Of a stretch of DNA of 64,000 bases, positions 3,368 to 9,847 are shown piece by piece. Positions within the stretch are counted from its first letter, which is position 1. Every line of letters begins with the position of its first letter. The stretch comes from an uncultured Eubacteriales bacterium. GTDB taxonomy: Bacteria; Bacillota; Clostridia; Peptostreptococcales; Anaerovoracaceae. The translations under genes were made by a program, and so were the position numbers. The stretch lies in the NCBI GenBank assembly GCA_902776285.1, contig CACYPK010000007.1:1-64000 (forward strand), written 5' to 3'. The notes beneath the pieces were generated by a model. It saw only the letters and a list, made by a program, of their open reading frames with translations, did not search any database and was not told where the DNA came from.

Positions 3368-5740
3368 CTAGAATGACTGCGCAGTACGGTTGATGATCTC
3401 GTTCTGGAGCTCCTCGTCGAGGTTCCTGAAGTAGTCTGAATAACCCGCGACACGGACTATCAGATCCCTGTAGTCGTCAGGATGCTTCTGCGCTTCAAGC
3501 AGAGTCTGCTTGTCGAAGACATTGAACTGGATGTGGTGACCGTCCATCGCGAAGTACGCGCGGATAAGGCTCGCCAGGTTTTCGAGGCCGGTGTCTCCCG
3601 CGAGAGCGCTCGGCGTGAATTTCTGGTTGAGCAGGGTGCCGCCCGTTGAACAGTGATCCATCTTGGCGCAGCTCTTGATGACTGCTGTCGGTCCGTATGT
3701 ATCAGCGAACTTTTCAGGCGAGATGCCCTCGGATACCGGCTTGTGGGCGCGTCTGCCGTTAGCTGTAGCTCCGATGACTTCGCCGAAGTATATGTGGCAG
3801 GTCGTAGGCAGCATGTCGACATGGTACTGACCGCCGCTCATGGTAGGTCTTCCCGTGATATCGTCCCTGTACAGCCTGAAGACTTCCTGCATGATATCGT
3901 CGGCATAGTCATCGTCGTTGCCGTACTTAGGCGTCCTGTTCATGACCATGTTGAGGATCTCCTCGTGACCGACAAAATCATCATCCATGGCCTTCAACAG
4001 TTCGTCCATCGTGAAGTTTTGGTTGTCGTAGATGTTGTACTTGATGGCCGCGAGGCAGTCGGTGATGGTCCCGATGCCTACGCCCTGGATGTACCTTGTG
4101 TTGTATCTGGAGCCGCCGTTATTATAGTCTTTGCCGTTCTTTATGCAGTCGTTGGTCACGATCGACAGGCAAGGAGCAGGCATGTACTGAGCGTAGAGTT
4201 TCTCGATGACATTGTTGCCGCGCACCTTGATGTCCGCCATGTAGTGCAGCTGCATCGCGAAAGCGTCCCAGAGTTCTTCATATGTTTTGAAATCGCGCGG
4301 ATCGCCGGTCTTTAGGCCGAGCTGCTTTCCGCTCTGGTTGTCAAATCCGTTATAAAGTGTCAGCTGGAATATCTTAGGGATGTTGAAGTATCCCGTGAGG
4401 ATGTACGCTTCGTTGCCCCAGCTTCCCGTCTCAACGCAGCCGGACGAGCCGCCCTGGCGCGCGTCAGGAAGAGTCTTGCCCGCGTTCAGGAGTTCCTGTA
4501 CTATCTCGTCAGTATTGTAGAACGCCGGCTGTCCCCAGCCTTCTCTTGAGATCTCGCAGGCCCTCTTGAGGAACCTATGCGGGGTCTTCTTGCTTATCTG
4601 CACGTTGGAATTAGGCTGCACCAGCTTCATCTCGTCCATGCAGTCGAGAATGAGATAGCTGACCGCGTTGACGCCGTTGCTTCCGTCCTCCCTGATCCCG
4701 CCGGTGTTGATGTTGGCAAAGTCTGTATATGTGCCGCTCTCTTTGAGTGTGACGCCTACCTTCACCGGCGCGGGCTGATTGTTGAACTTGACCCAGAGAC
4801 ACTCCAGGAGTTCCAGCGCCCTGTCGTCATCCAGTATGCCTTCCTCCACATCCTTCGCGTAGTAAGGATAGAGATGCTGGTCGAGCCTGCCCGGGCTGAA
4901 AGCGTCCCACGGATTGAGCTCGGATGTGACGGCAAGGTGGGTGAACCAGTAGAGCTGGATCGCCTGCCAGTAGGTCTGCGGAGCGTGAGCCGGGATGACG
5001 TCGAGGTTGGCAGCCATCTGCTCAAGTTCAGCCCTGCGTACAGGGTCTTCGCACTTCTTTGCTTCTTCTTCAAGCAGTTCCTGATATCTCTTGCCGAGTA
5101 TCATGACAGCATCGCAGTCGATCAGCATGGCCTCGAGTTCGTCCTTCTTTTCGACCGCCTCGGGATCGTTCATGAAATCCAGATCTTTTATCGCCTTGTG
5201 GATCTCCGTCTTGAATTCCGCGTATCCTTTGGTGAACACGTTCTTGCCGCCGCATGTATGTCCCGGTCCCCTCTGCTCCATGAACTCTGTAAACATTCCC
5301 GCCGCGTAGCATTCCATCCATTCTTCGGTCATGCCGGCGAGGATCTTGTCTCTCATGGACTTGCCTCTCCAGAAAGGAATGATGATCTCTTCCTGGTCTT
5401 TGAGGTCCTGCTCTGTCACCGTATAGTTGACGACAGCGCGGTCGTTCATGATGTGCATATCATCGAGAGTGTGGCAGGTGAGTTCAGGGAAGGTCGGCGA
5501 GGACTGCGGGTCTTTGCCCTTTTCGCCTACGATGAGTTCCCCCTCGCCAAGATAAAGAGTCTTTTTTGAAAAATACTCCTTCAGCACCATAGCTCTGAGT
5601 ACGGGCAGGGAAACCTTGCCTTCCCACTGCTTGTACACTTCTGTCTCGATTTTTGCTCTTTCGAGATCGATATGCGGCTGCGTCTCCATGCTGACTTTGC
5701 GAAGAGCTCTTATTCTTGCGTTCATTCCGCGTTCTTCCAT
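3368..5740 (-). CDS. hypD: Glycyl-radical enzyme, trans-4-hydroxy-L-proline dehydratase type
   Basis: 790 aa from the ATG at 5740, chosen for its AGGAGG 9 nt upstream; an in-frame ATG at 5788 lacks one. The radical glycine is G766 in RVAGYSDYF. The thiyl cysteine is C435 in SSGCVETG, with the base E437. H161, D279, S335, F341 and Y451 each fall one position after the residues I recall for Clostridioides difficile HypD (H160, D278, S334, F340, Y450, C434, E436). This makes hydroxyproline dehydration to pyrroline-5-carboxylate the best call, better than pyruvate formate-lyase or choline lyase. It follows its activase by 5 nt. Unlike many hypD loci, no proC reductase is adjacent. Confidence 0.85.
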   Translation of the reverse strand: MEERGMNARIRALRKVSMETQPHIDLERAKIETEVYKQWEGKVSLPVLRAMVLKEYFSKKTLYLGEGELIVGEKGKDPQSSPTFPELTCHTLDDMHIMNDRAVVNYTVTEQDLKDQEEIIIPFWRGKSMRDKILAGMTEEWMECYAAGMFTEFMEQRGPGHTCGGKNVFTKGYAEFKTEIHKAIKDLDFMNDPEAVEKKDELEAMLIDCDAVMILGKRYQELLEEEAKKCEDPVRRAELEQMAANLDVIPAHAPQTYWQAIQLYWFTHLAVTSELNPWDAFSPGRLDQHLYPYYAKDVEEGILDDDRALELLECLWVKFNNQPAPVKVGVTLKESGTYTDFANINTGGIREDGSNGVNAVSYLILDCMDEMKLVQPNSNVQISKKTPHRFLKRACEISREGWGQPAFYNTDEIVQELLNAGKTLPDARQGGSSGCVETGSWGNEAYILTGYFNIPKIFQLTLYNGFDNQSGKQLGLKTGDPRDFKTYEELWDAFAMQLHYMADIKVRGNNVIEKLYAQYMPAPCLSIVTNDCIKNGKDYNNGGSRYNTRYIQGVGIGTITDCLAAIKYNIYDNQNFTMDELLKAMDDDFVGHEEILNMVMNRTPKYGNDDDYADDIMQEVFRLYRDDITGRPTMSGGQYHVDMLPTTCHIYFGEVIGATANGRRAHKPVSEGISPEKFADTYGPTAVIKSCAKMDHCSTGGTLLNQKFTPSALAGDTGLENLASLIRAYFAMDGHHIQFNVFDKQTLLEAQKHPDDYRDLIVRVAGYSDYFRNLDEELQNEIINRTAQSF

Positions 5741-5745
5741 GGGTG

Positions 5746-6657
5746 TTATCCTCCTATTTTTACATTGCCGTACCCGGCATCTTCCCATTGTCTGACGAAG
5801 TTCTGCATCTCTTCGTCCGCCGGCGCCGTGAGCGCCTCTCCGGGATATGCCATCCCGAGTTTCCCGTATTTGTGAGAGCCCGTGCTGTGATACGGCAGCA
5901 GGTTCACCTGCAATGGCCGTATATCGTTGTCTTTCAGGAACCTGATAACAGCCTCCATCGACTCAGGGTCGCCGTTGACCTCTTTCACCACAGGTATACG
6001 GATGTATATCCTTGAGCCTGCCGCAGCAAGCCGCTTAAGGTTATCGAGTATGAGAGCGTTGCTCATTCCCATGTACTCACGGTGTTTTTCATCATCCATG
6101 ACCTTTATGTCATAAAGCCATGTATCGACGTACGGCATTATTGCCTCATAGTTACTGTACGGCGCCTGGCCGCAGGTGTCTATGGCGATGTTCACACCCT
6201 CCCTGTGCAGTTTTCTGACGAGTTCCTTTATGTAGCCGCTGTCCATAGCCATTACTTCGCCGCCGGAAAGAGTGACGCCGCCGCCTGACTCCTCATAGAA
6301 CATAAGATCCTGCATGCATATCTTCACGAGCTCATCGACTGTGTAGTCACGGCCTACCACAGTCCGGTAATTACCGGGGCATGCCGGTTCGCATCTGCCG
6401 CATACCACGCATTTCTCACGATCGGTCAGGGACTTTCCCTCTAAAGATATACTGACGGCGCCTTCAGGACATACCGCCGCGCATCTGCCGCAGCCCGTGC
6501 ACTTCGGGATATCCACCTGGAGTTCCTTATCAAAACTCTGTGTCTCCGGATTATGACACCATTGACATCTCAGATGGCAGCCCTTGAAGAACACTGTCGT
6601 CCTTATACCGTCGCCGTCATGTATAGAGTACTTTTGTATATTTGTAACTGAGTGCAT
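5746..6657 (-). CDS. hypE: Glycyl-radical enzyme activase (radical SAM)
   Basis: 303 aa. The radical-SAM cysteines are C27, C31 and C34 in GCHLRCQWCHN. A ferredoxin-like insert follows (about residues 50-95) with two CxxCxxC groups, as in activases of non-PFL glycyl-radical enzymes. It installs the glycyl radical on its partner by S-adenosylmethionine cleavage under anaerobic conditions. It ends 5 nt before the glycyl-radical enzyme start and begins 6 nt after the transporter gene stop, so all three are co-transcribed. The ribosome site is weak (AACAGG). The partner assignment rests on adjacency. Confidence 0.93.
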   Translation of the reverse strand: MHSVTNIQKYSIHDGDGIRTTVFFKGCHLRCQWCHNPETQSFDKELQVDIPKCTGCGRCAAVCPEGAVSISLEGKSLTDREKCVVCGRCEPACPGNYRTVVGRDYTVDELVKICMQDLMFYEESGGGVTLSGGEVMAMDSGYIKELVRKLHREGVNIAIDTCGQAPYSNYEAIMPYVDTWLYDIKVMDDEKHREYMGMSNALILDNLKRLAAAGSRIYIRIPVVKEVNGDPESMEAVIRFLKDNDIRPLQVNLLPYHSTGSHKYGKLGMAYPGEALTAPADEEMQNFVRQWEDAGYGNVKIGG

Positions 6658-6663
6658 CCTGTT

Positions 6664-8424
6664 TTAGATCGAGTATTTCTCCTTATACTCCGCAAAATGC
6701 GTTCTGAAGAATTCGTCCTGTCTGAAATCCGCCTGCAGATGATATGCATGAAGGCCTCCGACCTTAGTGACAGACTCCAGAACGTCCACGGCTATATTGC
6801 TGCAGTGGTCGGCTATACGCTCGTAGTCCGTGATCAGATCGTTGAAAACGAATCCGTGCTCATAGACGCATTCCTGACGGCTTATTCTTTCGACATGTCT
6901 GGCCTTTATCTCATCGCACAGATCGTCGATGACCTCTTCCAGCGGATCCACGAGCAGAGCCTTTTCGTAATTATCGTTCACAAAAGCAACAAGGGTAAGC
7001 TGTGATATATCCATTATCGCGTCTTCCAGGACCTGCAGCTCTTTGAGCGCCGCAGCAGTGAATTCGATCTTTTTCTCGTGTATCTCCTCGACGGCCTCTC
7101 CTACATTCCTCGCGTGGTCCGAAATTCTTTCGAAGTCCGAAAGAACTCTCAGATTCTTGCTGACTTCCTTAGAGTGTTCTTCATCAAGATCGGATACAGT
7201 GAGTTTGAAGAGATAGCTTCCGAGCTTGTCCTCGTAGCGGTCCAGCAGGCCCTCCAGGTCGTCCACCTTCTTGACGCCCTCCTTGCTGTACTCTCTTCTG
7301 ACCGCGACAGCGCTCTCCACGCTGTCCAGCGTCTTGACAGCCATCGAATCGATGACTTCCTTGCTCTGCGCAAGCGCGAGCGTAGGGTGGTCGAGGAATC
7401 TCGGCTCGAGTTTGTCCATGTCGGCTTTCTCGGCCAGAGCTTCTTCGCTCTCAGGGAAGAGGGCAACGACCAGTTTTTCGAGAAGTCCTATGCACGGCGA
7501 GAGTATTATTACTACCGCCAGCCTGTAGAGTGTATTCGTGAGCGCCACAGTGACCATGCTCATCTCCATCTGCATGAAGTCAAAATGGACAACGGCGTTG
7601 ATTATATAGAATATCCCTCCGACCAGTATAGCGCCGAGCACGTCTATGATCAGATATACAAACGCGGTGCGCTTGCCGTTAGTGCTGGCTCCGAGAGCGC
7701 TGAGCATGACAGGCACCGAGGCTCCGATGCCGATACCCATCAGAATAGGGAAGGCCATGTCGAACTCGACCGCGCCCGTGACGGCAAGAGCCTGGAGAAT
7801 ACCGACGGCAGCGCTCGCGCTCTGGATGACCGCGGTCACCAGCACGCCGATGAGCACTCCCAGTATAGGGTTCGTGAAGCTTGTCATCATGTCGATGAAC
7901 TTCGGATCCGATCTGAGCGGAACGATGGCCCCCGACATCATGCTCATGCCGTACATGAGGACGGCAAAGCCCAGCATGATACCGCCTATGTTCTTGTGTG
8001 ATGTCTTCTTGGCGAACATCCACAGGAGTATACCGATAAGAGCTACTACGCCTGTGAGTATCTCCGTACTGAAAATCGAAGCGACGCCTGCACCCGAGCC
8101 TCCTAAACTGTTGAGACAGAGGATCCAGCCGGTGATGCTGGTGCCGAGTATGGCTCCCAGCACTATGCCTATGGCCTGTTTTACCTGCATCATGCCGGAG
8201 TTTACGAAGCCGACTACCATTACCGATGTGGCAGATGATGACTGTATCGCCGCAGTTACTCCGGTACCGAGAAGTATTCCCTTTATCGGATTTCCTGCCA
8301 GCTTATACAGGATCATCTCCATCTTGCTTCCCGCAACTTTTTTGAGCGAGTCTCCCATGACCGACATTCCGAAGAGGAACATCGCGACTCCTCCGAACAG
8401 AGAGATTATATTAGTTGCATCCAT
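6664..8424 (-). CDS. Na/Pi-cotransporter family protein with PhoU-like domain
   Basis: 586 aa. Two inverted membrane repeats carry the family signature, QSSSA in the first and QSASA in the second, followed by several hydrophobic helices to about residue 320. A PhoU-like helical domain fills about 340-560. Family members move phosphate, or possibly other anions, with sodium. It is the first gene of the operon ahead of the activase and HypD-like enzyme, directly behind the riboswitch-like leader. Its link to hydroxyproline metabolism is not obvious; it may be the true target of the riboswitch, with the other two genes expressed downstream. Confidence 0.9.
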   Translation of the reverse strand: MDATNIISLFGGVAMFLFGMSVMGDSLKKVAGSKMEMILYKLAGNPIKGILLGTGVTAAIQSSSATSVMVVGFVNSGMMQVKQAIGIVLGAILGTSITGWILCLNSLGGSGAGVASIFSTEILTGVVALIGILLWMFAKKTSHKNIGGIMLGFAVLMYGMSMMSGAIVPLRSDPKFIDMMTSFTNPILGVLIGVLVTAVIQSASAAVGILQALAVTGAVEFDMAFPILMGIGIGASVPVMLSALGASTNGKRTAFVYLIIDVLGAILVGGIFYIINAVVHFDFMQMEMSMVTVALTNTLYRLAVVIILSPCIGLLEKLVVALFPESEEALAEKADMDKLEPRFLDHPTLALAQSKEVIDSMAVKTLDSVESAVAVRREYSKEGVKKVDDLEGLLDRYEDKLGSYLFKLTVSDLDEEHSKEVSKNLRVLSDFERISDHARNVGEAVEEIHEKKIEFTAAALKELQVLEDAIMDISQLTLVAFVNDNYEKALLVDPLEEVIDDLCDEIKARHVERISRQECVYEHGFVFNDLITDYERIADHCSNIAVDVLESVTKVGGLHAYHLQADFRQDEFFRTHFAEYKEKYSI

Positions 8425-8462
8425 TTATTGATATACCGCCCTTTCTCTCATATCTATAAATA

Positions 8463-8580
8463 AAGAGACTTTCACCGAAAAACCACAGTAAAAGTCTCGC
8501 TACTTCGAACATACCCCGGGGAATTCTTCCCGTACTGACGAAATATGTCACGCATCGCTGCGCAAGCTACTCCCTTATTA
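8463..8580 (-). promoter_or_regulatory. Candidate yybP-ykoY (Mn2+) riboswitch with overlapping terminator
   Basis: The minus-strand leader starts with AAGGGAGTAGC and ends its aptamer-like part with TAGCGAGACTTTT. These correspond to the conserved GGGGAGUAGC and AGCRAGACC elements of the yybP-ykoY class, and the two ends can pair as P1 with two G-U pairs. Between them GACATA and TATGTTC can form an inner helix, and CCCC/GGGG another. The 3' element GAGACTTT is also the left arm of a terminator whose right arm AAAGTCTC is followed by TTTATTT. Ligand-stabilised P1 would break the terminator, so this reads as an ON switch. No alignment was run. Confidence 0.6.
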
Positions 8581-8590
8581 ACTGTGTTAA

Positions 8591-8619
8591 ATATCACACA
8601 TTCAGCCCCGATTTGTCAA
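8591..8619 (-). promoter_or_regulatory. Promoter of the transporter-hypE-hypD operon
   Basis: On the minus strand, TTGACA (8614-8619), a 17-bp spacer and TGATAT (8591-8596). The predicted start lies a few bases before the riboswitch-like element. Confidence 0.7.
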
Positions 8620-8649: not shown

Positions 8650-9798
8650 CTACTCGAACAGTTCGCTTACTTTCTTCAGAAGTCCGCGTATCTCCAGGTG
8701 CTGCGGACATACTTCCTCGCACATTCCGCATTCTATGCAGTCGCTCGGTTTTCCGCTTTCATTTGTGATTTTCTCAAATGATGCCCAAGGATCGACCTTG
8801 CCGAACAGGACCTTACTGTTATATGCCGAGAACAGATTCGGTATCCTGATCTCCATAGGGCAATGGTTCTCCTCTACGCAGTATCTGCATCCCGTGCAAG
8901 GTATCGCTCCCATCGAGCCGAAAACAGCCACCACCTTATCGATCGCTTCAAGTTCCTTTTCGCTGAGAGGAGCAAAGTCTCCGTCATTGCAGCTGAAAGT
9001 ACAGATATTGTCTTTCATCTGCTCCATATTGCTCATTCCGGACAGCACCATCTCGATCCCGTCGAATCCCGCGGCAAACCTGAGGGCATAGCCCGCGTTG
9101 CTGCAGTCAGAACCTGTCTCAGCTCTCAGATCATCCAGCGTCTTCTGCGCTTCTTCAGGCAGATTCACAAGGTTTCCGCCCCTGACCGGCTCCATGACAA
9201 GTACAGGCTTGCCGTGCTTGCGGCAGACTTCGTACACCTTGCGGCTCTCTATGGATACGTTCTCGTAGTCGAGGTAGTTGAACTGTATCTGAACGATCTC
9301 GACTTCCGGATACTCCGTGAGTATGCGGTCAAGGACCTCTGCTTTATCATGGAACGACAGTCCGACGTGACGGACCTTGCCCTCTGCCTTCAGATCGAAG
9401 GCGGTCTCATAAGCGCGGCACTGTTTGAAGAACTCGAAGTTCTTGGCGTTCTGAGCGTGCATCAGCAGAAAGTCGAAATATTCGACTCCGCATGCCTCGA
9501 GCTGCGAGTCTATCAATGGCCTGATATCCTCTTCTGTCTTGAAATACGCGTCCGTAAGCTTGTCAGTCAGGACGTACTCGCCGCGCTCATGCCTTGAAGT
9601 AAGACACTCCTTTACCGCGACTTCGCTCAGTCCGTCGTGATAGCCGTGGGCGGTATCAAAGTAGTTGAATCCGCTCTCAAGGAATGTGTCGACCATTTCG
9701 CAGACCTGCTCATTATCGATCTTTCCGTCCTTCATCGGCAGTCTCATCATGCCGAACGCGAGATGCTTTTTGTTTTCACTGAATGCTCTGTTATTCAT
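8650..9798 (-). CDS. Aldo/keto reductase with C-terminal 4Fe-4S domain
   Basis: 382 aa from the ATG at 9798, chosen because GGAG sits 7 nt upstream. The N-terminal two-thirds is an aldo/keto reductase barrel, with the DTAHGYHDG stretch holding the usual Asp and Tyr, then a K (LTDKL) and an H (LLMHAQN). The C-terminus has a CxxCxxxxxxC group and a ferredoxin-type CIECGMCEEVCP. Such fusions occur in anaerobes and are annotated as ferredoxin-linked oxidoreductases. The substrate is unknown. It is separated from the riboswitch-led operon by that operon's promoter. Confidence 0.9.
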   Translation of the reverse strand: MNNRAFSENKKHLAFGMMRLPMKDGKIDNEQVCEMVDTFLESGFNYFDTAHGYHDGLSEVAVKECLTSRHERGEYVLTDKLTDAYFKTEEDIRPLIDSQLEACGVEYFDFLLMHAQNAKNFEFFKQCRAYETAFDLKAEGKVRHVGLSFHDKAEVLDRILTEYPEVEIVQIQFNYLDYENVSIESRKVYEVCRKHGKPVLVMEPVRGGNLVNLPEEAQKTLDDLRAETGSDCSNAGYALRFAAGFDGIEMVLSGMSNMEQMKDNICTFSCNDGDFAPLSEKELEAIDKVVAVFGSMGAIPCTGCRYCVEENHCPMEIRIPNLFSAYNSKVLFGKVDPWASFEKITNESGKPSDCIECGMCEEVCPQHLEIRGLLKKVSELFE

Positions 9799-9847
9799 TT
9801 TCTTTCTCCGTCCATGCACGGCGATTCATCAGCTGACCGGTCTTTCT

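Follow-up and report, generated by a model that had tools for sequence, protein, structure and literature searches.

The locus poses the question of what kind of RNA precedes a gene for a Na/Pi cotransporter-PhoU fusion, and what an element resembling a manganese sensor would do in front of a phosphate transporter. In the window (the whole 64-kb stretch of DNA that was analysed), the original prediction had placed a yybP-ykoY-like (Mn2+) riboswitch before this gene, with conserved ends, a P1 helix and a competing terminator following a promoter. All of these elements are present, on the minus strand and in the order promoter, aptamer, terminator and Na/Pi gene. We consider it very likely, judging from sequence comparison, that the leader belongs to the yybP-ykoY class of Mn2+ riboswitches and works by antitermination, as an ON switch for the Na/Pi cotransporter-PhoU gene. 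The sequences themselves show homology to the class, conservation of the metal-site nucleotides, two helices that exclude each other, and linkage to the gene; Mn2+ as the ligand and the ON direction in the cell are inferred from these.

Layout and conservation of the leader

The features of the locus, all on the minus strand, are as follows.

8590..8619, minus: sigma-70 type promoter (TTGACA 8619-8614, 18-nt spacer, extended -10 TGT-GATATT 8595-8590), predicted start near 8583
8484..8586, minus: yybP-ykoY-type Mn2+ riboswitch aptamer, P4-less form, recognized by covariance models R2 and R3 (below) and conserved in 21 relatives
8574..8586, minus: P1 5' strand CACAGUUAAUAAG (CACAGU..AAG), pairing with 8494-8484
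8566..8573, minus: L1 5' half GGAGUAGC, of which GGAGTA is invariant in 26 exporter leaders
8574-8566, minus: conserved 5' motif GGGAGTAGC, spanning the last P1 base and the L1 5' half
8550..8563, minus: P2 hairpin GCGC-AGCGAU-GCGU, from free folding and the genus alignment; relatives differ in its length and sequence
8509..8548, minus: P3.1 (8548-8542 / 8515-8509), L3 CGUCAGUAC...CGG and P3.2 GGG/CCC, with the discriminator A at 8536
8540-8529 and 8521-8516, minus: L3-region motifs CGTCAGTACGGG and CCCCGG, respectively
8494..8501, minus: L1 3' half AGCGAGA together with the first C of P1 (AGCGAGAC)
8484..8494, minus: P1 3' strand CUUUUACUGUG, also part of the terminator 5' arm
8458..8498, minus: intrinsic terminator overlapping the aptamer, with a 13-bp hairpin GAGACUUUUACUGUG..CGGUGAAAGUCUC (8498-8465; -18.3 kcal/mol) and a U-rich tail to 8458
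8436..8445, minus: probable ribosome binding site GAAAGGGCGG, from sequence inspection
6664..8424, minus: regulated gene, Na/Pi cotransporter-PhoU fusion of 586 aa, ATG at 8424 (PF02690, 6.5e-53; PF01895, 8.3e-20)
5746..6657, minus: trans-4-hydroxyproline dehydratase activase (NF043069 over cut-off), 6 nt after Na/Pi
3368..5788, minus: trans-4-hydroxy-L-proline dehydratase HypD, a glycyl radical enzyme (NF043068 over cut-off)

The 5' neighbour of the leader (8650-9819, minus strand) encodes an aldo/keto reductase whose C-terminal part is a ferredoxin-type domain. Helices P1, P2 and P3 all emerge from free folding of the aptamer alone, and given the predicted start near 8583 the outermost P1 pairs may be missing from the transcript. 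The entire leader folds better than all 200 of 200 shuffled versions (z -3.4), a test that is good by itself, not decisive. A pattern scan alone did not place the promoter and terminator above chance (2 found against 1.9 and 1.4 expected), and the case for the leader therefore rests on conservation.

With respect to conservation, Na/Pi orthologues were gathered from 60 genomes and 30 loci were fetched, 21 of which carry the full leader 60-220 bases 5' of the start codon. Across these 21 leaders the segments GGAGTAGC, CGTCA, CGG and AGCGAGAC are invariant, and the variable positions lie in the P1 strands and in the P2, P3.2 and terminator loops. When the leaders of the genus are aligned, both partners have changed in five of the P1 pairs, and native pairing of the P1 strands is better than swapped pairing (p 0.015, permutation), a modest value given that the terminator makes use of the 3' strand as well. 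The terminator hairpin is kept in all 21 leaders (-13.3 to -23.9 kcal/mol), and TTGAC..TGTGATA-type sequences are found 5' of the leader in most relatives. All of the P1 3' strand (8494-8484) is contained in the 5' arm of the terminator (8498-8484), an arrangement that is likewise kept in the 21 relatives and that places P1 in competition with the expression platform.

Other Na/Pi loci carry altered leaders, and the losses in some close relatives (L106, L014, L025) count against the riboswitch reading. The 5' half of the aptamer is lost at locus L014, the promoter and leader are wholly missing at L106 (Na/Pi 91% identical), and a promoter and riboswitch-like terminator remain without an aptamer at L025, L028 and L029. 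In the last two, two Na/Pi genes stand in tandem with this remnant separating them, and the full switch precedes the first of the pair. At a further locus (L118:4838-6734), a leader and N-terminus as in the window are followed by a different Na/Pi paralogue, which marks either a recombinant or a chimeric assembly.

The putative metal site can be compared with crystal structures of the class, in which L1 and L3 phosphates together with N7 of one invariant A (A41 in L. lactis, A48 in X. oryzae) bind Mn2+, and A10 makes an A-minor contact to the C44-G66 pair (PMC6754395). Placing A41/A48 from that work on our alignment, we find that the L1 letters, the C-G pair and the discriminator A (8536) are all retained in the window. 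The C44-G66 pair does not vary, and the metal-site nucleotides of L1 and L3, including the discriminator A, are invariant both in the Na/Pi leaders and in the 26 exporter leaders. The window aptamer does not form the four-way junction with P4 seen in the crystal structures: only ~8 bases lie between P3 and AGCGAGA, which leaves no room for P4 and reduces the junction to a three-way one at best, a point against the assignment. P4-less forms also stand 5' of exporter genes in other genera (L053, L175, L176, L187), and for this reason we do not regard P4 as obligatory and take the window form as a variant within the class.

Class assignment by covariance models

At Rfam gathering thresholds the single match in the window is a tRNA, and RF00080, the yybP-ykoY model, which was run on the window, on its own genome and on 99 relatives, gave no match in the window even with permissive settings. 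The same cut-off is passed by one of 99 related genomes and missed by the other 98, bona fide exporter leaders included. As better-matched models do find the window, the RF00080 miss is best regarded as a false negative, that is, a problem of sensitivity. Taken literally, the RF00080 search that the original prediction had proposed as a check thus came out negative, and the class assignment it was meant to check stands nonetheless. The RF00080 threshold tests the model more than it tests class membership, and the model misses most members in this order.

Homology was examined in both directions. A covariance model built from the Na/Pi leaders of the genus only (R1) was applied to a 398-genome draw of the phylum and a 198-genome draw of the order, where it matched leaders of P-type ATPases, MntP, UPF0016, TerC, CaCA antiporters and OadB-like proteins; it also recovers the leaders of other families that had been detected with RF00080, most at E 1e-7 to 1e-2. 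Conversely, a model from 26 metal-exporter leaders outside the genus (R2), whose members show strong covariation in P1, P3.1 and P3.2 (score 0.667 versus 0.213 in shuffles), scored the window at 60.8 bits (E 6.7e-14), a result that is partly circular because many R2 members were found with R1. This circularity is removed by R3, built solely from 11 leaders of other families found by RF00080, which gives a single match in the 64-kb window (8583-8484, 39 bits, E 1.1e-7) and finds the leaders of 21 of 21 relatives, most at E 1e-4 or better. Taken together, R3, R2 and the reciprocal R1 searches establish sequence-plus-structure homology to accepted yybP-ykoY members, and with the conserved core they bear out the prediction of a yybP-ykoY-type riboswitch, with Mn2+ as its predicted ligand. 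A new riboswitch family is not supported; the class is a known one.

Two further groups of leaders were observed in these searches. Manganese-riboswitch-like leaders stand 5' of OadB-like genes in several families (L062, L066, L076, L174, L188, L189, L195); we take these genes to be Na+-translocating decarboxylase beta subunit-like from inspection of their sequences, not from a family search. At L073 and L075 the same aptamer type precedes an ORF that by eye resembles a YugP-type zinc metallopeptidase.

With permissive settings, the sole Rfam family matching the leader was RF02617 (SSRC10), at 25.1 bits, below its gathering threshold of 56 bits; the alignment nevertheless runs through the full 113-nt model end to end, terminator included (window positions 8460-8579). 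SSRC10 is a short sRNA of S. pyogenes, verified by Northern blot and encoded 5' of a 'putative calcium transporter' (PMC3675131). These two points would favour reading the leader as an SSRC10-type small RNA that acts in trans and stands 5' of Na/Pi by chance. We hold this to be highly improbable and rejected it, as the match falls under the cut-off, the genus retains the position immediately 5' of Na/Pi, and SSRC10 itself, besides preceding a calcium transporter gene, carries the same L1/L3 letters as the manganese riboswitch. SSRC10 is better read as an attenuated leader of this class, which suggests that the Rfam 'sRNA' is the terminated leader of a streptococcal manganese riboswitch, mis-typed. 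In S. pneumoniae, a yybP-ykoY riboswitch in the 5' leader controls mgtA, the gene for a Mn/Ca ATPase (PMC11434433). An unrelated terminator or attenuator with a chance likeness to the motif would agree with promoter and terminator patterns at chance level, and its probability is close to nil: the covariance models, with E-values of 1e-7 to 1e-14 in both directions, refute it, and the core is conserved in 21 relatives.

Genes under the proposed switch

The predicted regulon was counted by running R1 over 47 genomes of the genus, which its named relatives place among Mogibacterium-like MAGs from gut and rumen, and assigning targets from coordinates and downstream ORFs. This yielded 44 aptamers, 31 of them 5' of Na/Pi genes: 28 precede the window-type Na/Pi gene and three a second Na/Pi paralogue that is about 30% identical. 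The others precede a PacL-type P-type ATPase (nine, the window's own genome among them), a CitMHS/ArsB-family membrane transporter (three, in three genomes; L160, L162, L164) and a Ca/Na antiporter (one). In its own genome R2 gave one match besides the window, 5' of the PacL-type ATPase (Ca2+/Mn2+ type), so that one aptamer copy precedes a Ca/Mn-type ATPase and the other precedes Na/Pi. A third Na/Pi paralogue of this genome (L169) has no such leader, and neither R1 nor R2 matched near the MntP gene of the genome (C17:84878-85342). Outside the genus, no Na/Pi gene under the switch was seen among the phylum and order matches examined, with the exception of one MAG contig labelled Erysipelotrichaceae (L104). 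The simplest history would be that, within the genus, a switch once belonging to an exporter gene was moved to Na/Pi genes.

The prediction of a Na/Pi-family gene under the switch held, with both PF02690 and PF01895 recognized in the protein. Solved SLC34 structures match its residues 3-109, the first half-repeat, and the SLC34-like QSSSAT core is kept. In the window the activase is probably co-transcribed with Na/Pi; the listed hypD ORF overlaps the activase, and the true start of HypD is therefore probably later than the listed ATG. The hypD and activase genes directly follow Na/Pi in the window and at L080, and lie ~1.1 kb further on at L082, L083 and L087; beyond these five linked loci, an intact hypD pair beside Na/Pi was not found at the loci examined. 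A conserved Na/Pi and glycyl-radical operon was rejected on account of this linkage in few relatives. The aptamer, as far as these gene orders indicate, travels with Na/Pi.

Proposed mechanism and relation to known systems

In terms of mechanism, the position of the P1 3' strand inside the terminator 5' arm means that a metal-stabilized P1 would prevent termination; only one of the two helices can form at a time, and the switch is accordingly predicted to be ON with Mn2+. This agrees with the antitermination logic proposed for the class, in which a weak P1.1 is stabilized by Mn2+ (PMC6754395). At low Mn2+, the P1 3' strand CUUUUACUGUG would pair with the downstream CGGUGAAAGUCUC arm to form the terminator, and Na/Pi would not be made. 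With Mn2+ as the presumed ligand, the ion would be held between L1 (GGAGUAGC/AGCGAGA) and L3 (CGUCAGUAC...CGG), N7 of the A at 8536 acting as the discriminator; in this bound state P1 would be stabilized and the terminator blocked, and Na/Pi, here also hypD and the activase, would be transcribed, the ON direction being that expected in the cell. Under Mn2+ overload, Na/Pi may then move phosphate outward, like its relative YjbB, or otherwise lower free cytosolic Mn-phosphate, working beside the PacL-type ATPase that is under the same switch in this genome. We prefer this physiological step because YjbB promotes Pi export in Salmonella (PMC11389368), yet it is the least certain part of the explanation.

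Several other readings accept the RNA and differ in what it senses or achieves. Mn2+ could instead turn on phosphate import, the incoming Pi binding Mn2+ as Mn-phosphate or refilling Pi pools tied up by Mn2+. Na-coupled import gave the family its name, the SLC34-like core is kept, and a Deinococcus PitA homologue enriches intracellular Mn-Pi (PMC13188870); we regard import as possible, if on the unlikely side, as the nearest described bacterial relative, YjbB, is the Pi exporter noted above and, within the genus, cation exporters or antiporters make up most of the other genes under the switch. It is rather doubtful that manganese detoxification is carried out by the Na/Pi-PhoU protein itself, through export of Pi together with Mn2+ as metal-phosphate; if it were, the Mn2+ riboswitch would give the genus a route of Mn2+ efflux coupled to phosphate. 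A yybP-ykoY fold with a shifted ligand (Ca2+, Mg2+, another divalent ion, or Mn2+ together with phosphate) would account for a phosphate-transporter target that is unusual for the class, and would fit the absence of P4 and the response of the streptococcal relative to Mn and Ca (PMC11434433). We judge it improbable, given that neither the L1/L3 core nor the discriminator A varies and that ordinary Ca/Mn ATPase genes, in this genus and also in this genome, have the same P4-less aptamer in front of them.

Compared with RF00080 yybP-ykoY riboswitches, the window leader has the same L1 (GGGAGUAGC/AGCGAGA), L3 (CGUCAnUAC..CGG), helices P1-P3, discriminator A and P1/terminator switching, and it differs in having no P4 hairpin, in falling below detection by the model and in preceding Na/Pi instead of a cation exporter. 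The streptococcal mgtA (pacL) Mn/Ca riboswitch and SSRC10 share with it the L1/L3 letters, the lack of P4, the overlapping terminator and the full-length sub-threshold alignment, whereas their target is a P-type ATPase and Rfam lists SSRC10 among the sRNAs. The encoded protein has the domain order and QSSSAT core of the Na/Pi cotransporter-PhoU family (YjbB/NptA-like, PF02690 and PF01895). In the literature searched we found neither manganese-riboswitch control of this family nor any yybP-ykoY riboswitch associated with phosphate transporters or cotransporters. Fluoride riboswitches, which also sense an ion and occasionally stand 5' of phosphate transporters (PMC9971707), are a different RNA with a different ligand, and the same review states that no riboswitch class is commonly associated with phosphate transporters (PMC9971707), which makes the present pairing of interest even though the RNA class is known. 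As far as the literature searched extends, the riboswitch class is known and the phosphate-transporter target is new, and the placement of Na/Pi genes, in two paralogues, behind a predicted manganese switch in most genomes of one genus connects manganese overload directly with phosphate flux in a way that can be tested.
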